Below are positions 14,212 through 37,684 of a stretch of DNA of 39,360 bases, piece by piece. The DNA lies in the IMG/VR virus record IMGVR_UViG_3300037485_000434, positions 1 to 39,360 of that record; one strand, given 5' to 3'. Made by a program: the position numbers and the translations under genes. Positions within the stretch are counted from its first letter, which is position 1. The number at the start of each line of letters is the position of its first letter. This stretch comes from a virus. The notes below the pieces were generated by a model. It saw nothing but the letters and a program-made list of their open reading frames with translations, did no database searches and was not told the DNA's origin.

Positions 14212-15633
14212 TCACACAAGTCCGGGCGCAGCCCACTGAAGCGGCTTCTTCCAGCTATTTTTGCCGTTGGATCGACCGACTGCAATGGCCCCGCCGCCAG
14301 CGAAAGTCAGGCAAAGTGCGTCAGCCAAGTTAGGCGATCTGACTCCGCGCTGCTTCATCGCGCCCTTTGACTCGACATCTGCCTTACCAGTCGATGTGAA
14401 GATCGCTTGTGGCTCCGCCAATTCCGACATCAGCTTTTCAGTCAGGTCAAGTTCTTTGGGCAAGACGACATTGCGCTGCTCCAGCCATTCCCTGACTGCG
14501 TACCACAATTCCGCCCGCAACCGCGTGAAGCGGTCTTTCATGGATGGAGACTCAGCAACGTTAACATCAACAGCAGGAAGCCCAAGCTCACGAAGGCGGT
14601 CAGCCACACCAGCACCCAGACCGATGGAATCGACGAAGATGGATTCCGGCCTGTCTTTGTCGGCGGTGCGATCCCAGCGTTCTTTAACACGGCCTGTGAC
14701 GCGCATGAGGTCGGCATCGTACCATTCGATGAGTTCTTCGACATGGTTGTCTGCTCGGATGCAAAAGCCTGTTGGATCGCCTCCGCGTCCGGGGTCCACA
14801 CCCCAAAAACGCTCCGCGCCGCGTAGGAGGTCAACGTCTCTGCCCCATGCGCCATCAATCAACTCCTTGGGGATTACAGTGTCGGCAACGCTTTCAGGAA
14901 ATTCGCCTAAGACTTTGTAGCGGTAGGTGTTCGAGCCTGTGCCGTAAGTCAGGGCAATGTTGTCAACGAAATCCTGCGTCACACGCGAGGAATCAAAAGA
15001 CGACACTTGCTTGGTGAACCATTTGTGCTTCAGCAGAGTGTGCGTTTTGTGAAAGTATCCAGTCGGTCGCGTTGGGTTGCCGATCAGGATGAAGATAGAA
15101 CCAGCCGATGACATTGTGCCTTCTGCAAACTCAAACACGATGTCCGGCACACCGCTTGCTTCGTCCACAATCGCCATCACATGACTTGCGTGGATACCCG
15201 CCAAGGCTTCAGGCGAGTCAGCGCGGGCTGTTCTGAACGAGATAAAGTTGTTGTCGCCGCCCGGAACGCGCCTGATGCGGTCCTCAGTCATCTCAATCTG
15301 GACGCGCAGGAAGTCAGGAAGTTTGGCGATCCACCGCTTCGTTTCTGGAATCAAGCCGTCCTTCAACTGGGAACTGGACGGAGCAGTCACAGGAATCTTT
15401 ACGTCATCACGGAACAGCAAGTAGTGGATGGACAGCCACGCACATAGCGCAGTCTTGCCCACCCCGTTCCCAGATCGAATTGAAATTCGCGTCTCACCGC
15501 TGTCCAAAGCAGCCATCGTCTCGCGCTGCCAGTCTTCGACTTTCTCGACGCCCAAAATCTCAGTGACGAAGAAGTAGCGGTCAACAGCACACCGCGCCAC
15601 TAGGGCAGAGTAAAGATCGTCTTCTTCACTCAC
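14212..15633 (-). CDS. terL: Terminase large subunit (ATPase-nuclease)
   Basis: This 473-residue DNA-packaging motor cuts the concatemer and drives DNA into the prohead. ATPase domain: Walker A SGNGVGKT at residues 54-61, Walker B IVDE with D157 and E158, and motif III IGNPTRPTG at ~184. RNase H-like nuclease domain: D280 in GVDPGRGGDP, D335 in FVDSIGLG, D438 in NLADAL. The length is normal for the P22/Terminase_6 group. Translation starts at GTG 15633, overlapping a 12-codon lysine-rich reading frame by GTGA. The nuclease type suggests headful packaging, which fits the circularly permuted assembly. Confidence 0.95.
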   Translation of the reverse strand: MSEEDDLYSALVARCAVDRYFFVTEILGVEKVEDWQRETMAALDSGETRISIRSGNGVGKTALCAWLSIHYLLFRDDVKIPVTAPSSSQLKDGLIPETKRWIAKLPDFLRVQIEMTEDRIRRVPGGDNNFISFRTARADSPEALAGIHASHVMAIVDEASGVPDIVFEFAEGTMSSAGSIFILIGNPTRPTGYFHKTHTLLKHKWFTKQVSSFDSSRVTQDFVDNIALTYGTGSNTYRYKVLGEFPESVADTVIPKELIDGAWGRDVDLLRGAERFWGVDPGRGGDPTGFCIRADNHVEELIEWYDADLMRVTGRVKERWDRTADKDRPESIFVDSIGLGAGVADRLRELGLPAVDVNVAESPSMKDRFTRLRAELWYAVREWLEQRNVVLPKELDLTEKLMSELAEPQAIFTSTGKADVESKGAMKQRGVRSPNLADALCLTFAGGGAIAVGRSNGKNSWKKPLQWAAPGLV

Positions 15634-16143: not shown

Positions 16144-16536
16144 TCAATCTTTCTTCGCTGACTTCGCCCCTTGCAACTCTGGCAAGTTCAGCGTCCCCGC
16201 CAGCAGACGCAAGTGGTGCGGCAAGGCTCCTGCAACCTCAGAGGTCGAGTCAGCCAATTTCGCTTCTGCACTGACAGTCTCAACGCGCCCATAGGCTCGT
16301 GTGATCGCCATCTCAATCAGCGCCATCTGATTGCGTGGACCCATCCCATTCCACTTCTCCTCGTCGTTCAACATCTCGAACATCTTGAGGACAGCACGGC
16401 GTCCGTTCTCTTTCAGCAACTTCGCGCTTGCAGCGTCTAGCGCATACCTGTCGTGGACAGCAGCCTTGCGGACCTGATCTTCCGGCGACTGCGGCACAAC
16501 AGTCAGTTTGGCATTCGGCAGTGGGCTATCTGACAT
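16144..16536 (-). CDS. Putative small terminase subunit
   Basis: This 130-residue protein starts at MSDSPLPNAKLTVVPQSPEDQ; the ATG at 16536 has GGAGGGA upstream, and the longer frame beginning at 16749 is through non-coding sequence. It is mainly helical: RKAAVHDRYALDAASAKLLKENGRRAVLKMFEMLNDEEKWNGMGPRNQMALIEMAITRAYGRVE. Being the first gene of the virion operon and two genes before terL, it is the best candidate for the DNA-recognition subunit of the packaging motor. No sequence signature proves this. Confidence 0.6.
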   Translation of the reverse strand: MSDSPLPNAKLTVVPQSPEDQVRKAAVHDRYALDAASAKLLKENGRRAVLKMFEMLNDEEKWNGMGPRNQMALIEMAITRAYGRVETVSAEAKLADSTSEVAGALPHHLRLLAGTLNLPELQGAKSAKKD

Positions 16537-16596
16537 GGTTCCCTCCAGTTCCCAAAAGTATAGCGACAGAATGCTGGTGTGTCCACTGGGGACGTA

Positions 16597-16673
16597 GCGC
16601 CAGCGTAGTCCACCTGTAGTGGACTGCGCGTAGGGGATAAAGCCACGCGCATAGGGCATATGGCAATAGCGCG
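16597..16673. repeat. Structured element, copy A (two tandem hairpins)
   Basis: Order: GCGCCAGCGT (16597-16606); hairpin 1 AGTCCAC-CTGTA-GTGGACT (16607-16625); hairpin 2 GCGCGT...ACGCGC (16626-16650) with loop AGGGGATAAAGCC; then a tail with GGGCATATGGCAATAGCGCG. The whole arrangement recurs at 17641-17720 in the same orientation. Hairpin 1 differs in sequence between copies but keeps a perfect stem and a five-base loop, a sign of selection on structure. It lies in the leader of the virion operon. Confidence 0.7.
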
Positions 16674-16752
16674 TTCGTTCATAAAGCCTCGCCCGCGATA
16701 TTGCGCCGAAATTACGCCGGCAAATTTTGTGGTGCGGTTTCGCCCTCAAAGT

Positions 16753-16772
16753 GAACTACTACTTAGTAGTTC
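16753..16772. promoter_or_regulatory. Perfect 20-bp palindrome, operator candidate
   Basis: GAACTACTA-CT-TAGTAGTTC is a 9-bp inverted repeat with a 2-base centre. It is followed by two AAAATTTT tracts (about 16774 and 16789), which may bend DNA. It lies between the phased CTGACT array and the start of the virion operon. The short centre and perfect symmetry fit a dimeric repressor or activator site. No clear minus-strand -35/-10 pair was found near it by eye. Confidence 0.55.
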
Positions 16773-16803
16773 AAAATTTTGCAGCGGAAAATTTTTGAGG
16801 TCG

Positions 16804-16849
16804 CTGACTTGTCCTGACTTGCCCTGACTTTGGCTGACTCACGCTGACT
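16804..16849 (+). repeat. Five CTGACT copies at exact 10-bp spacing
   Basis: CTGACT starts at 16804, 16814, 16824, 16834 and 16844, each unit being three variable bases, CTGACT and T or C. The spacing is constant at 10 bp, one DNA helical turn, so all copies face the same side. The spacer bases vary while the word does not, which indicates a binding-site (iteron-like) array more than simple slippage. Nearby copies continue this loosely (17014/17025 and 17081/17092, both 11 bp apart). Confidence 0.75.
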
Positions 16850-17052
16850 CGACGCATGAAATTTATTGCGAAAAAGTAAAAAATACGAGGTAGCAGCCTG
16901 TTAGGGTGTCAAAATAAAACTGCCCCGCCCGCCGCCACCCCGTGGGGGGGTCGCGCGTCAAAGTCAGCCCTGACTCGGCCTAAGCCCTTGAAATTGCTAC
17001 ATATTCCGTTGCCCTGACTCGGCCCTGACTGGACGCCGCGCATCGCCTGACT

Positions 17053-17070
17053 TGGTTCAAGGTTGAACCA
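17053..17070. promoter_or_regulatory. 18-bp palindrome, operator candidate
   Basis: TGGTTCAA-GG-TTGAACCA is a perfect 8-bp inverted repeat with a 2-base centre, followed by TTTT. The loop is too short for an efficient terminator, so a protein-binding operator is more likely. It lies among CTGACT words in the middle of the control region. Confidence 0.5.
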
Positions 17071-17174
17071 TTTTGCCGCCCTGACTTGGCCCTGACTGGC
17101 CCGCCGCCGCCCGTTGCGTGGCCCTGACTGGCCCGCCGCCCGCCGCCCTGACTGAGGCCTTGCGCGTGATGCGA

Positions 17175-17201
17175 GGGCGGGCGAGGGCGGGCGAGGGCGG
17201 G
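17175..17201 (+). other. G-quadruplex-type tract
   Basis: Six runs of GGG separated by C or CGA lie in 27 bases (three tandem copies of GCGAGGGCGG). This meets the usual G3+N1-7 pattern for an intramolecular quadruplex on the plus strand. The tract is flanked on both sides by GTGATGCGAGG-like sequence. It could stall polymerases or mark an origin. Confidence 0.6.
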
Positions 17202-17276
17202 CGTGATGCGAGGTTAGCCCAACCCTATGACTTGCATAGGCAATGCCAACCCATGACCTGACTTGAGTAGGCCATG

Positions 17277-17348
17277 CCTATGCGGTGCTTAGGCTTGGCC
17301 TATCCATGCCCTCTGCCTGCATGGGCTATACCTATGCGGTGCTTAGGC
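17277..17348. repeat. 18-bp direct repeat pair
   Basis: CCTATGCGGTGCTTAGGC occurs identically at 17277-17294 and 17331-17348, 54 bp apart. The surrounding DNA is full of related words such as GCCTA, TAGGC and ATGCC. Such short exact repeats are compatible with protein-binding sites in an origin or control region. Confidence 0.6.
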
Positions 17349-17640
17349 AATGCCGAATTAGGCCAGATCGGGGGCTTTTGTTCGATTAGTGATAGTAAAT
17401 CCCGACTTTTGCTGCCTATCCATTGCTTAGGCCAGACCTAATGGCCCGCAGAGGCCCGCAGAGGCCCGCCAGAGGGCCAAGCCGCTTGGCCTAGGCCTAC
17501 CCCTATCCCAACCCTGACTTTGCGTTTTGCAGGGTTTGTGCGCGTCTCTGGCCCCTATCGCCCCGCCGCCCGTTAGATCACGCCTCACCGCTTGGCCTTG
17601 GGCTGGAAACGTCAGCCTGATGTGGCCCGCCGCCGAACTC

Positions 17641-17720
17641 GCGCCAGCGTGGGCGGTGGCTATAGGCCACCGCGCGTGGGGATAAAGCCACGCGCGTGGC
17701 GATATTATGGCATTGCGCGC
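17641..17720. repeat. Structured element, copy B (two tandem hairpins)
   Basis: Second copy of the element at 16597-16673: GCGCCAGCGT (17641-17650), hairpin 1 GCGGTGGC-TATAG-GCCACCGC (17653-17673), and hairpin 2 GCGCGTG...CACGCGC (17672-17695, sharing two bases with hairpin 1) around GGGATAAAGC. The tail ends in TTATGGCATTGCGCGCG. Hairpin 2, its loop and the flanks are conserved with copy A. Hairpin 1 is conserved only in pairing. It lies upstream of the AAA+ ATPase gene. Confidence 0.7.
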
Positions 17721-17809: not shown

Positions 17810-17878
17810 GGACTTTGTCCAGGCGTTTTATGGGGGCTTGACTTGTCAATCTTGACTTTGATATTCAGGGGGCGGGCG

Positions 17879-19081
17879 ATGTTGCCCGACCTGCTAGGAT
17901 TGACTGAAATGCACCTGACCAATGCCGATAGGGCCAGCTTGCGCCGCTTGATTGCGGCGCATCCTGACTGGCCCGCCTACCGCCGTTTGCACGGCGTCGA
18001 CACCTCAAGCCTTGGCGCTGCACGCGCCCTTGAAGTCGCCCGCCACCTTGGGATTGACACCGCCCACATCACAAACAAAACAGAGGACACCGCCGCCATG
18101 ACAACGACCCCCACAGCCCCCGCTGGCCTTTTCAACACGACCCGCCCCGCCGCCGCGCCCGCCGTTATGCGGCCCGCCGCCAGCGCCGCCCCTAGCGTCC
18201 AGTCAGCAATGGATGCGCTGATGGCGGCGCTGACCGCTCAACAGGGCGACACCGCCGCCCTGACTGACCTGACCGCCCGTGTCGAATTGCTGGAAAGCGC
18301 CGCGCCCCGCTTGCTTGTGGTAAATCAGGACGGGGCGGCGTGGGGCGCAGAACTGCCCGCCAGCCGCCACCCAATGCTGGAAACGCTCATTCTGACTGTG
18401 GCGGCGCGTGACATCGCGGGCCACCGCATAAACGCATGGTTAGCGGGGCCAATGGGGTCAGGCAAAACGACCGCCGCCCGCATGGCGGCGGAAGCCTTGG
18501 GGCTGGCCTTCGCCCCGATGGGGGCCATGTCGCAAGCGTTCGAACTGATGGGCTTTGTAGACGGCGGCGGCGCATATCACACGACCCCTTTTGTTGAGGC
18601 ATACCGCAACGGCGGGCTTGTGCTGTTGGATGAACTGGATAGCGCCGACCCTACCATAACGCTGATCTTGAATGGCCCGCTAGACAACGGGCGCATGACC
18701 CTGCCCACTGGTGAGGTGATCCACCGCCATCCTGACTGTGCCATCATTGGCGCTGGCAACACGCATGGCAACGGCGCAACGGCGGAATATGTCGGGCGCA
18801 ATCGCCTAGACGGCGCTTTCCTTGACCGCTTTGCTTTTCTGGATTGGGCCTACGATGAGGCCCTTGAAACGGCGCTGGCGGGCAATGCCGATTGGTCGGG
18901 GCGCGTCCAAGCGGCCCGCCGCCGCGCCGCCAAAGCGGGCCTTAAAGTCGCTATCACGCCCCGCGCATCAATTCGCGGCGCGGCGCTTATTCGTGCGGGG
19001 CTGGCCCCTGACGCCGTGGCCCGCATGACTTACTTGCGCGGCCTGACTGACGCCCAAATCCAGCAAATTGAGGTGGCCTAA
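17879..19081 (+). CDS. MoxR/CobS-like AAA+ ATPase
   Basis: This 400-residue protein starts with ATG at 17879 (AGGGGG six bases upstream); a TTG-initiated frame 12 codons longer is less likely. The N-terminal ~45 residues look like a small helical domain (NADRASLRRLIAAHPDWPAYRRL), followed by a long Ala/Pro/Thr linker. AAA+ core: Walker A GPMGSGKTT (K196), Walker B LVLLDELD (D251, E252), sensor-1 IGAGNTHG, and NRLDGAFLDRF as arginine-finger region. This is the CobS/MoxR type that remodels partner proteins. The adjoining gene (TAA directly followed by ATG) encodes the likely partner. Codons are strongly biased to GCC and CGC, unlike the flanking genes. Confidence 0.88.
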   Translation: MLPDLLGLTEMHLTNADRASLRRLIAAHPDWPAYRRLHGVDTSSLGAARALEVARHLGIDTAHITNKTEDTAAMTTTPTAPAGLFNTTRPAAAPAVMRPAASAAPSVQSAMDALMAALTAQQGDTAALTDLTARVELLESAAPRLLVVNQDGAAWGAELPASRHPMLETLILTVAARDIAGHRINAWLAGPMGSGKTTAARMAAEALGLAFAPMGAMSQAFELMGFVDGGGAYHTTPFVEAYRNGGLVLLDELDSADPTITLILNGPLDNGRMTLPTGEVIHRHPDCAIIGAGNTHGNGATAEYVGRNRLDGAFLDRFAFLDWAYDEALETALAGNADWSGRVQAARRRAAKAGLKVAITPRASIRGAALIRAGLAPDAVARMTYLRGLTDAQIQQIEVA

Positions 19082-19945
19082 ATGTTGCGCTTTGACCTGA
19101 CCGCCCCCAATGGCGACCCCATCCCATGCGCCCGCTTTGACGCGCCAGAGGCGCTGGCGGCCTATCTTGCTGGCCCCGTGGCGGCCTATGGCACGACCCG
19201 TTGGGGCGACGACGAAATGTCATTCTATGGGGCCGACCGCGCCGACACCTTGCACCGCGCCCTTTTGGGCGATGTCAAGCGGGTTGCGGCCTCTGACGCC
19301 TTGCTAGACCGCATGGAAAGCGCCGTGGGCTTTGAGGCGCGGCGCTGGCGGACAGTCGATTGCGTGGCGGGCGGGTCGCCCAATGTTCCCGCTTTTCTGG
19401 CGGGGTCGCCCATGTCCATGCGCCGCCGTGTCCGCACAATGGACACCGCCGCCCCGCTGACGATTGCGGTGGAAATGACTGTAAGCGCCAACGCAAAGCC
19501 CGCTGAGATTGCCCGCCGTGGCGCGGCGGCGCTGGCGCTGGCCCGCATTGCCGCCGCCGCCCGCCCTGTGACTTTGTGGGCCTTTTACGGGGCGCAAAAC
19601 TACGGGCAGAACGCCGCTTTTGCGGTCAGGATTGAGACGGCCCCGCTGGACCTAGCGCGGGCCGCTTGGCTACTTTGCTCACCAGAGGCTTGCCGCCGCG
19701 CCGCGCTTTCGACTTGCTGCGTGGTCGGGGGCTGGCCCACAGAGGGCGGCGGGGCGCAATGGATGGATGACCACGCCGCCACAATGGCGGCAATCCTGCC
19801 CACGCTGACGGGGGCCACTGACTTTGTGAGTGTGGCGGGCCTCAACACCACAGAGGGCCGCGAAGCCTTCGCCAGCGACACGGCGGCGGCGGCGTGGGTC
19901 GCATCCATGCTGGCGACCCACGGGGCGGTTGAGCGGGCCGCATAG
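19082..19945 (+). CDS. DUF7192-like protein, likely partner of the AAA+ ATPase
   Basis: This 287-residue protein starts at the ATG immediately after the ATPase stop. Features: AYGTTRWGDDEMSFYGADRADTLHRALLGD (~40-70), DCVAGGSPNVPAFLAGSPMSMRRRVR (~95-120), and an alternating hydrophobic C-terminal half. The W-G-x-D/E, G-A-x-x-A and G-x-P-x-x-x-P-A-F-L-A-G-x-P-x-x-M pattern matches a phage family I know as DUF7192; its function is undescribed. By analogy with CobS-CobT and MoxR-VWA pairs it may be the scaffold or substrate adaptor of the ATPase. No clear metal-site (MIDAS) motif is visible. Very GCC-rich coding. Followed by a terminator. Confidence 0.75.
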   Translation: MLRFDLTAPNGDPIPCARFDAPEALAAYLAGPVAAYGTTRWGDDEMSFYGADRADTLHRALLGDVKRVAASDALLDRMESAVGFEARRWRTVDCVAGGSPNVPAFLAGSPMSMRRRVRTMDTAAPLTIAVEMTVSANAKPAEIARRGAAALALARIAAAARPVTLWAFYGAQNYGQNAAFAVRIETAPLDLARAAWLLCSPEACRRAALSTCCVVGGWPTEGGGAQWMDDHAATMAAILPTLTGATDFVSVAGLNTTEGREAFASDTAAAAWVASMLATHGAVERAA

Positions 19946-19972
19946 GCCCGCCGCCAGCCCGCCGCCCTGACT

Positions 19973-20000
19973 GGCCCGCCATTGGCGGGCCTATTCTTTC
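19973..20000 (+). terminator. Intrinsic terminator after the AAA+/DUF7192 pair
   Basis: GGCCCGCC (19973-19980), loop ATT, GGCGGGCC (19984-19991), then TATTCTTTC. This is a perfect 8-bp GC stem with a short, imperfect T-rich tail 28 bases after the stop codon, separating this unit from the early operon. Confidence 0.6.
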
Positions 20001-20032
20001 GCCCTGCCCCTGCCCGCCGCCCTGCCCGCCGC

Positions 20033-20358
20033 CAGCACCTGACTGGCCCGCCGCCAGCACCTGACTGGCCCGCCGCCCTGCCCCTGCCCGCCGCCAGCAC
20101 CTGACTGGCCCGCCGCCCTGCCCCTGCCCGCCGCCAGCACCTGACTGGCCCGCCGCCAGCCCGCCGCCGCCAGCACCTGACTGGCCCGCCGCCGCCCTGC
20201 CCCTGCCCGCCGCCAGCACCTGACTGGCCCGCCGCCGCCCTGCCCCTGCCCGCCGCCAGCACCTGACTGGCCCGCCGCCGCCCTGCCCCTGCCCGCCGCC
20301 AGCACCTGACTGGCCCGCCGCCAGCCCGCCGCCGCCAGCACCTGACTGGCCCGCCGCC
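20033..20358. repeat. Nine-copy direct repeat array centred on CTGACT
   Basis: CAGCACCTGACTGG begins at 20033, 20055, 20095, 20135, 20171, 20214, 20257, 20300 and 20336. Steps are 22, 40, 40, 36, 43, 43, 43 and 36 bp. Each copy is followed by CCCGCCGCC, with or without an extra GCC, and then usually by CTGCCCCTGCCCGCCGC or a shorter Ala-type GCC spacer. The 14-base core is invariant; the spacers vary by GCC triplets. All GC, with no open gene on the plus strand. It lies between a terminator and the early promoter and could be an iteron-type origin, a regulatory array or a recombination hot spot. It is not a CRISPR array because spacers are also repeats. Confidence 0.85.
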
Positions 20359-20455
20359 CTGCCCCTGCCCGCCGCCCGACCGCCGCCCGCCCGCAGCCCT
20401 GACTTATTGACTTGATATTTAAGCAAGAATAGCAAGAAAGAAGAAAGAAAGACGC

Positions 20456-34681: not shown

Positions 34682-37600
34682 TTAGTTACCCCCACTATTC
34701 TGCTGTATGTACTTGGCTTGGTCGGCTGGGCTTAGTTCCGCCCATACGCTAGGCCACTGCTCTGCGGTGATACCATTTGGTACAGGCAAGTTAGCAGGAG
34801 GCGGCTCGAAGCTACCAGAGGCAGGAGGCTCTGCGCTGCCAACCACAGACCGATCAACCGGGCCTTGGTAGAGTTCGAAGTTTTTAGTCATCGTATTGAT
34901 GATTTTTGCTGCTTCTGCGTAGGCCGGATCATTGGTCGGAAGGTCAGTAATTTCGCCCGCTTTCCACGCTTCTTTTACGTCTGGCGGGATACCCATCCAG
35001 TGCCGCGCAAACGTGTCTTCTGTGACGCCAAGTGTGTTTTGTCCAACTTGATAAGGCTGACCAAACTCGTCATAGCGCATCAGGTCTTTAGGCCCGTAAA
35101 GAGCATCCTTCGTGTAGTTCATCTGGAAGGCAGCGTCTTTAACAATGACTTCGCCTTTGAGGTCTTCTGGAGTAGCGAGACGCGACACAGACTCACCAAG
35201 TGCCTTCAAATCAAGGTTTGATACAGGAGTCAGCGTAACCCCAGCTTCTTTTGCTGTGATAAGAGCGTCAAACATGGACTGTGCGCCCAGCGTTCTTACT
35301 GTGGCAAGGAAAGAAGTGCGATCTGTCTGCTGAACAACCCCACCCAGTATGCCAGTATAGAGTTTACCACCCATACCAGTGGTCCAGAAGTCCAGACCAT
35401 TTTTGAACACTTCTTGCGCCGAATTTTCTGCCACAGCAAACTGGCGATCAGCGTAAACATATTCTTTGCTGGCAAGTGCCGCAGCATCTGTTTTTGCTTT
35501 TTCGGCAGTGGCAACAGCGGTATCATAATCTAGTTGTGAGTTTTTCACTGCTTGTTCCGCAGCAGCTAGGGCGGCTTGCTTAGTCTGAGCGTCGACAAAC
35601 TGGCTGCTTTTAGCAATTTGCAAGTCTACAGCAGCTTGTTCATTTGCAAGGTTGGCTGCTTCGACCTCAAGAGTAGCTTTTGCCTCTGCGGTCGGTGCGT
35701 TACCAATTTTTGTTTGGAGATCAAACTGTGCAGCAGCCAAGTCAGTTTTCTTTATCTCAAGGTCGACAGGCGCTGCCTCTGCTGCTGTAGCCGTTGCTTG
35801 CTCCGTAGCTGCTGTGCCAGCGATGGTATCGGCCAAGGTAGCAGTCTGCTGTGCAATGTCTCCCGGAAGCAGTGCTGCTTTCGCCGCATCATTTACAGAA
35901 CCAAACATAGTTCCAAACGCGCCACCAACAGTTCCCGCAGGAGCGCCACCAGTCGCAGGAGCGCCGCCCGCCGCCGTAGGAGCGGTAGCAGGAACAAGGA
36001 CCACTTGCCCATCTGGGCCTAGAGCATACTGCATATTCGGAGGAGCAGCAGGGCCAGTTGCAATGATATTACCTTGATCGTCGTAGCGGGCTTGTCCAGC
36101 CCCAAGTGTGAAGCCAGAGGTAGCCGCAGACGATGCTGGACCAGTGGCGATGACTTCACCATTTGGACCATAGCGGACTTCGCCAGCACCCAGCGTAAAG
36201 CTGGAGTCAGAAGCTGCCGAGGCAGGGCCAGTGGCGATAACTTCGCCATTAGGCCCGTAGCGAACTTCTCCAGCACCAAGCGTAAACTGGGCGTCAGCAG
36301 CAGGAGCGCGATCCTTCATCAAGGTGAAGACATCTTCTTCGCCATTAAGGGCAATGACACGTTCTGCGGCCCGCGCTTGTATGCTTCCCGGCGCAGCAGT
36401 GCTTAGAATGAAACGGGCATCAGCGACATTCTGGTCACGGATGTCTTGCTGCTTTGCTTCTTGTTCGAGCAAAGTCTGATCTGCTTGGATTTTTTGGTAG
36501 GCACTGAGGGCATCGACGCCGCCCTTTTGAACAAGGTCGATGGACTCTTGCGACATATTGCCAGCTTTCATGGCAGTAACCAGCGCATCCGTAGTGGCGG
36601 CATCTTTAAGGCGAGCGTCTTGAGCGTCCTTTTCTACCCGCTTCATCTGGCGCTCATTCAGAACGTCAGTGTAGCTAATCGCCCCAGAAGCAACACCAGC
36701 GGCCATATCGGCGTCACCAGTCTGCGAATAGACCAGCGAGGCAGCGGCCTTGGCTTTCTCTTTTTCACGAGTGTCGAGGACATACTGGCGGCGGCGCGTG
36801 TCAGCGTTTGCAGCGATGTTCGACAGATCGACTTGACCACCTTGCGACAAGGCAGACAGACCCTGACTCAGACCGCGCCAGATGTCTTTGCGGTGCGCCG
36901 CTTTCTCGTCTTCAGCAGCATTCGGATAAAGCGAAGACAGAATGCCTTCGACAGTCTGCGGCAGAGCGCCGCCAGCGTCAGGCCCACCCATAGTGCTGCT
37001 TCCAATATTCATGCCCGCCCCTGCCATTGCAGGATCGTAAGGCTGGCCGCTCATGCGAGCAGCTTCATTGGCGCTTTGCACGGAGTGCGAGACGCCGGGG
37101 CGCAGGAACTGATCTGTAAAGACAGTTGCTGCCGACTGGGCGTCAGGGGATTGGATCAGTGCGTCATAGGCTTTGCGCTCTGGGCCAGCAAACTCAGTCA
37201 TCATAAAGTCGATTTGCGCTTGATCGTCGTTTACGTTCTTGCCATTTTCGGACGCCCACCGCTCGAAGGCAATGCGGCGAGGACCAGTCAACTGATACAA
37301 ACCAAAGCCGCCACGCGACCCCAGAACAGTAGGATCGCGCTCGTTGATTGTCGGGTCTAGGCCGCTTTCCGACCCCATACCAGCGACAATGCCTTCTGCC
37401 ACAGGACGAGAGAAGCCACGTTTTGCAAACTCGCGGATGTAGTATTCTTGGGCGTCAGAGGTTGTCTTAGGCAAAGGCGTCACTGGGGCAATATTGACTA
37501 AGGTCGGCTGCGGCACTGGACCACGCTGCACGGCGTCATCAACTTGGACGCCCTGTCCTTTGAGGATAGGGCTGGCAAGCTGGCTCATCACACTACCGAT

Positions 37601-37684
37601 GCTCGAAGCCTCATCGCCCCGCGCGTTCGCGTAGTCTAGGAGAGCAGCGAGCGGGTTCTTGCTACGGCGAGTGTTCATTGCCAT
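34682..37684 (-). CDS. Internal virion protein with tail-lysozyme domain and tandem repeats
   Basis: This 1000-residue protein has a lysozyme-like domain at ~76-200: EYYIREFAKRGFSRPVAEGIVAGMGSESGLDP (probable catalytic E106), then GGFGLYQLTGPRR, as in phage tail lysozymes that open a path through the cell wall. At ~466-548 there are three close copies of FTLGAGEVRYGPNGEVIATGPA and one diverged copy (ALGPDGQVVLV). Residues ~600-760 are a long Ala-rich coiled coil. The C-terminal domain (~780-1000) is globular. It is likely ejected with the DNA. Good ATG at 37684. Confidence 0.82.
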   Translation of the reverse strand: MAMNTRRSKNPLAALLDYANARGDEASSIGSVMSQLASPILKGQGVQVDDAVQRGPVPQPTLVNIAPVTPLPKTTSDAQEYYIREFAKRGFSRPVAEGIVAGMGSESGLDPTINERDPTVLGSRGGFGLYQLTGPRRIAFERWASENGKNVNDDQAQIDFMMTEFAGPERKAYDALIQSPDAQSAATVFTDQFLRPGVSHSVQSANEAARMSGQPYDPAMAGAGMNIGSSTMGGPDAGGALPQTVEGILSSLYPNAAEDEKAAHRKDIWRGLSQGLSALSQGGQVDLSNIAANADTRRRQYVLDTREKEKAKAAASLVYSQTGDADMAAGVASGAISYTDVLNERQMKRVEKDAQDARLKDAATTDALVTAMKAGNMSQESIDLVQKGGVDALSAYQKIQADQTLLEQEAKQQDIRDQNVADARFILSTAAPGSIQARAAERVIALNGEEDVFTLMKDRAPAADAQFTLGAGEVRYGPNGEVIATGPASAASDSSFTLGAGEVRYGPNGEVIATGPASSAATSGFTLGAGQARYDDQGNIIATGPAAPPNMQYALGPDGQVVLVPATAPTAAGGAPATGGAPAGTVGGAFGTMFGSVNDAAKAALLPGDIAQQTATLADTIAGTAATEQATATAAEAAPVDLEIKKTDLAAAQFDLQTKIGNAPTAEAKATLEVEAANLANEQAAVDLQIAKSSQFVDAQTKQAALAAAEQAVKNSQLDYDTAVATAEKAKTDAAALASKEYVYADRQFAVAENSAQEVFKNGLDFWTTGMGGKLYTGILGGVVQQTDRTSFLATVRTLGAQSMFDALITAKEAGVTLTPVSNLDLKALGESVSRLATPEDLKGEVIVKDAAFQMNYTKDALYGPKDLMRYDEFGQPYQVGQNTLGVTEDTFARHWMGIPPDVKEAWKAGEITDLPTNDPAYAEAAKIINTMTKNFELYQGPVDRSVVGSAEPPASGSFEPPPANLPVPNGITAEQWPSVWAELSPADQAKYIQQNSGGN
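36045..36289 (-). repeat. Tandem ~84-bp coding repeats in the lysozyme-domain protein
   Basis: Three strongly similar units of 28-29 codons and one diverged partial unit encode FTLGAGEVRYGPNGEVIATG-type sequence. The first two units are the closest to each other, indicating recent duplication. Each unit could form a short beta-hairpin with a GPNGE turn, serving as a flexible spacer between lysozyme domain and coiled coil. Confidence 0.8.

Follow-up and report, generated by a model that had tools for sequence, protein, structure and literature searches.

What purpose is served by an 80-nt element that occurs twice, in one orientation, in the junction between the divergent late and early genes of a LUZ24-like phage? 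The window, i.e. the whole 39,360-nt stretch that was analysed (IMG/VR virus record IMGVR_UViG_3300037485_000434), has ends overlapping by 127 bp and is therefore probably a closed genome of ~39.2 kb. The reading preferred here, tentatively and by analogy with related phages, is that the two copies are matched cis-acting DNA elements at a concatemer junction, used for processing into terminally repeated genomes.

The junction and its two copies

The late genes run leftward from 16536 and comprise the candidate small terminase (TerS) followed by TerL, portal, scaffold and capsid genes. The early genes run rightward from 17909, beginning with an AAA ATPase and continuing with a helicase, a Cas4-like exonuclease, a DNA polymerase, a Holliday junction resolvase and a primase/helicase. 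The candidate TerS is named from its position; it has no Pfam or PHROG match and no profile match to the TerS of phage phiM5, and its predicted fold (mean pLDDT 45) is too poor for use. The gene after the ATPase (19082–19945, + strand) matches DUF7192 / phrog_1909, a match which assigns no function. The features of the region are as follows.

14212–15633, − strand: large terminase subunit (TerL)
16144–16536, − strand: candidate small terminase (TerS), first late gene, 130 aa, by position only
16557–16585, − strand: predicted late sigma-70 promoter, TGGACA-N17-TATACT (promoter scan)
16581–16593, no strand: dyad GTCCACTGGGGAC over the late −35 box, repeating GTCCAC of c1 hairpin 1
16597–16606, + strand: c1 5' motif GCGCCAGCGT (box 0, GCGC)
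16607–16625, + strand: c1 hairpin 1 (AGTCCAC 16607–16613, loop CTGTA, GTGGACT 16619–16625)
16626–16650, + strand: c1 box 1-loop-box 2 (hairpin 2), GCGCGTAGGGGATAAAGCCACGCGC
16647–16672, + strand: c1 box 2-box 3 segment, CATATGG core
16890–16965, no strand: block X, a GC-rich C-run/G-run block found in all sub-clades, resembling an annotated phiM5 terminal-repeat end
17641–17652, + strand: c2 5' motif GCGCCAGCGTGG
17653–17673, + strand: c2 hairpin 1 (GCGGTGGC 17653–17660, loop TATAG, GCCACCGC 17666–17673)
17672–17695, + strand: c2 box 1-loop-box 2 (hairpin 2), GCGCGTGGGGATAAAGCCACGCGC
17692–17718, + strand: c2 box 2-box 3 segment, GATATTATGG core
17838–17865, + strand: predicted early promoter, TTGACT-N16-GATATT (promoter scan)
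17909–19081, + strand: AAA_5/MoxR-like ATPase, first early gene, 42% identical to its phiM5 counterpart

The copies, c1 (16597–16673) and c2 (17641–17720), are real direct repeats in non-coding DNA around a silent stretch between the opposing gene blocks, and have in common GCGCCAGCG and, without a mismatch, the 18 nt GGGGATAAAGCCACGCGC. A first-pass annotation had described them as a duplicated two-hairpin element, and its coordinates and hairpin 1 sequences proved correct on re-check. Two copies are indeed present, but the element is larger than described, with hairpin 1 abutting three GCGC boxes. Hairpin 2 and the tail are shared by the copies as claimed; the stem of hairpin 2, however, is essentially GCGC(G)/(C)GCGC with inner pairs partly broken in relatives, and the tail contains the third GCGC box. 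RNA folding z-scores against dinucleotide shuffles are −3.1 and −3.9 for c1 and c2 on the + strand, and −3.0 and −3.5 on the − strand.

As had also been stated, the copies bracket the control region: both are enclosed by the predicted late and early promoters, which point outward and are the only promoter-like sites that the scan gave in this region. The late promoter has counterparts in relatives, with an 18-nt spacer in G011 and as TAGACT in L034. CTGACT / CCTGACTTGGCC repeats are abundant between the copies, at 16800–17530, and occur also in a tandem array and in relatives. This GC-rich array (19950–20390) is built from a 43-bp unit with CCTGACTGGCCC, and the unit differs from phage to phage.

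Homologues and the pairing of hairpin 1

Exact patterns were searched in 2.9 million viral contigs, together with protein-based searches. The element was found in eleven further IMG/VR contigs, all belonging to one LUZ24-like podovirus clade with three sub-clades: the window group (L004, L005, L008, L016, L017, L019 and L032), L034/G008, and G011, G012 and G013. Eight of the eleven (L004, L005, L016, L017, L034, G011, G012 and G013) span both copies and always contain two, in one orientation and in the same divergent intergenic region, 741–1469 nt apart; L008, L019 and L032 carry one copy each. The element sequences of L005 and L017 are identical, and in c2 of L004 the third box is not intact. 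Where the copies are further apart, in L034 and G013, an HNH gene has been inserted, and HNH_3 endonuclease genes lie between c1 and block X in L034 (3353–3901, − strand) and L068 (1818–2339, − strand). A palindrome, AGTCAAACTTGACT, follows both copies in L034 (near 3300 and 4710) and is a possible operator.

No additional clade emerged from a final scan with the c1 hairpin; L099 and most matches of that scan were set aside as chance matches, apparently in coding sequence. No relatives were found in phage and plasmid collections, nor in GTDB genomes by TerL or element pattern. An architecture scan of 2.75 Mb of strands, using a pattern devised after the copies had been seen (a hairpin of at least 6 bp abutting three equal palindromic boxes at 19–23 and 41–44 nt), matched only the c1/c2 sites of the clade and two singletons, and nothing in 0.9 Mb of shuffled control.

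Hairpin 1 of c1 is GTCCAC/GTGGAC in all contigs. That of c2 varies: GGTGGC/GCCACC, GGTGTC/GACACT, GGTGAC/GTCACT (GTCACA in L032), GCACCC/GGGTGC and AGCAAC/GTTGCT. As MAFFT misregisters the arms, the pairing was scored on an alignment made by hand. Over ten distinct sequences 59 of the 60 inner pairs (six per stem) are kept, with two qualifications: the sequences are related, and the arms were chosen to give each copy its best stem, which makes the pairing partly one of construction. The count of 59 was never reached in 20,000 randomisations (maximum 50 when the letters of the 3' arm were shuffled, 56 when whole arms were swapped). Three to four standard pair types occur at five of the six positions, and four pairs still show more than one type when the alignment is re-anchored, by eye only, on the 3' arm. 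Two observations do not depend on the choice of arms. The window, L005 and L016 have almost the same c2, in which one pair is G-C, T-A and A-T while the rest of the stem is fixed. The 3' arm, moreover, adjoins box 1 in every copy, and a stem of at least six pairs adjoining box 1 appears in 1–5% of single-copy shuffles.

Together these comparisons support selection on the pairing of hairpin 1. The first-pass annotation had proposed as much from two copies, with preservation of the stem in homologues as its test, and the homologues do keep the stem. A few G-T pairs, in hairpin 1 of c2 in L005 and L016 and at the fifth box 1-box 2 position in G011, are valid on the + strand only, which suggests that the + strand may be the one that folds.

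The GCGC boxes and their concerted change

The three boxes follow hairpin 1 at 0, 20–22 and ~42–43 nt. Box 2 shifts while the overall span stays nearly constant (r = −0.95; SD 0.48 vs 0.94 and 1.27), where in four copies with GCGCGC as box 3 the reading nearer 43 was taken, the first GCGC giving totals of 40–41. Such a spacing, about two and four helical turns, would suit proteins bound on one face of the DNA duplex.

Between box 1 and box 2 the two copies of one genome are 84–100% identical, compared with 61–72% for the same copy between sub-clades; the box 2-box 3 segment shows no such concert within genomes. The simplest account may be that a single factor recognizes both copies in trans, and recombination between the copies could be another. 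By candidate TerS sequence the clade falls into the same two groups (54–58% identity across them, 77–78% between L034 and the G group), against which TerL is 91–97% identical.

Proposed genome ends and competing readings

The packaging reading draws on the position of the copies. TerL, the capsid protein and the first early ATPase are 42–47% identical to those of the LUZ24-like phage phiM5. Of the named phages, phiM5 matches TerL and capsid best, next to matches from uncultured Manatee Spring phages. Its annotated terminal repeats meet where the ATPase and TerL genes diverge, and c1 and c2 stand in the corresponding junction, between TerS/TerL and the early genes, which holds the terminal repeats in LUZ24, tf and phiM5. 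In LUZ24 and tf the repeats (184 and 186 bp) lie in a non-coding junction with outward promoters on both sides, as predicted here. A motif, GGTGTATCTGGGGAATATCCC, is present at both repeat ends of LUZ24 in one orientation, and in tf the core GATATCcc with palindromes is likewise found at both ends in one orientation; the tf authors noted that the details of end processing need re-addressing (PMC3517423). The end sites of these phages resemble c1 and c2 in being palindromic with an AT core. They repeat one motif at mapped ends, and c1 and c2 are two copies in one orientation that would lie at predicted ends.

There are also dissimilarities. The LUZ24/tf motif is ~20 nt and its repeat 184–186 bp, whereas the element described here measures 80 nt, contains a covarying hairpin and has its copies 0.74–1.47 kb apart. 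There is no sequence resemblance between the two: neither GGGAATATCCC nor GATATCcc is present in c1 or c2, and all that is common is an AT core with GC-rich sequence on either side. The LUZ24 end hairpin, with loop AGATAAAGT, was considered as a homologue of hairpin 2 and rejected, as the GATAAAG loop is not conserved in the LUZ24 genus. Sinorhizobium phage phiM5 (357-bp terminal repeat) also has divergent genes around its junction, but no c1/c2-like element was found in it and its repeat overlaps the small terminase gene. The annotated phiM5 repeat end lies in a C-run/G-run block resembling block X, and the cut might therefore be at block X, between c1 and c2, with another role for the copies; this is the chief objection to the packaging reading. 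The position and the pairing of the copies match known terminal-repeat end sites; their sequence and structure do not. The earlier statement that no described element has this structure holds to that extent: none was found to match, yet position and pairing are those of terminal-repeat ends.

Contigs G004, G008, G011 and G012 (~41 kb) start or stop in or near the place corresponding to the tandem array at 19950–20390. Genome ends at these breaks, near 20150, were considered and rejected because the breaks fall inside the array and the two ends of the window can be joined through their 127-bp overlap.

According to the packaging reading, c1 and c2 would serve as recognition sites, and possibly cutting sites, during genome processing. 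Both might be read by terminase or by some other protein with which the phage processes its DNA. A candidate cut region is the AT core separating box 2 from box 3, and the terminal repeat would span roughly c1 to c2, i.e. ~1.05 kb here and 0.74–1.47 kb in relatives. A more specific version is doubtful: a genome-end signal read partly by shape, in which a cruciform or single-strand hairpin of free sequence is combined with a sequence-specific box array evolving in concert, at the ends of a ~1-kb terminal repeat. Among the packaging sites known to us, none has a covarying hairpin of this sort.

Cruciform origin or packaging sites had been among the functions first proposed, and this option fits best, with packaging preferred and the origin kept as a rival. 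As a replication origin or single-strand initiation site, the folded + strand would be recognized by a primase or an initiator and the silent CTGACT-rich stretch would be the origin. This is unlikely but has points in its favour, namely a non-coding junction rich in short repeats, boxes about two turns apart, and a hairpin of conserved pairing and variable sequence that fits single-stranded DNA, the few G-T pairs favouring the + strand. Sites about two turns apart are typical of iteron-type origins. In c1 and c2, however, only GCGC recurs, the boxes lack common flanks, the intervening sequence differs, and the copies are far apart and direct rather than inverted; neither copy contains three or more near-identical direct repeats of 17–22 bp, and no mapped origin was found in any LUZ24-like phage for comparison. 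The N4 virion RNA polymerase also uses as promoters small hairpins that form on one strand close to the genome ends, but the window has no gene for a giant polymerase of the N4 type. Its longest ORF (34682–37684, − strand) encodes 1000 aa and includes a phage tail lysozyme domain (PF18013).

Leaders of both operons, another early suggestion, are not supported and were rejected: the copies have a single direction where the operons diverge, and both lie inside the two predicted promoters, upstream of each, so neither would be in transcripts from them. Paired regulatory RNAs, pictured as two paralogous small RNAs transcribed from the + strand whose functional parts are hairpin 1 and the TAAAG loop, would account for compensatory changes that include G-T pairs valid on that strand only and for the partly conserved loops CTnTAG and TAAAG. 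They appear improbable all the same. In the window and two relatives, no promoter-like site leads into either copy on the + strand and no terminator-like site lies just 3' of either, hairpin 2 and the tail are predicted to fold differently from copy to copy so that hairpin 1 alone recurs, and the RNAalifold consensus, from an alignment that is imperfect, has an energy of only −3.1 kcal/mol. Rfam gave no match; its sub-threshold hits, with two lncRNA models from eukaryotes, lie outside c1 and c2.

A double-stranded array of operators, through which a phage regulator controls the divergent promoters and in which hairpin 1 is a protein-binding palindrome, would explain why each promoter has a copy upstream, the two-turn spacing of the GCGC boxes and the repetition of GTCCAC in the late −35 region. 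It is, nevertheless, similarly improbable, since a dimer of fixed specificity needs equal half-sites and the hairpin 1 arms of c1 and c2 differ in every genome in which both were read; the copies also share one orientation though the promoters diverge. A mobile or REP-like repeat inserted twice by chance would be a GC-rich hairpin repeat of this kind, but the constant pair of positions that the copies occupy throughout the three sub-clades, and the absence of any other copy from the window, make such an origin highly improbable.

Non-coding elements of uncultured phages are seldom shown to be under selection. The element described here offers a concrete prediction of where the genome ends are located and, if the packaging reading is true, the LUZ24-like group would possess a packaging signal with a part conserved in shape.
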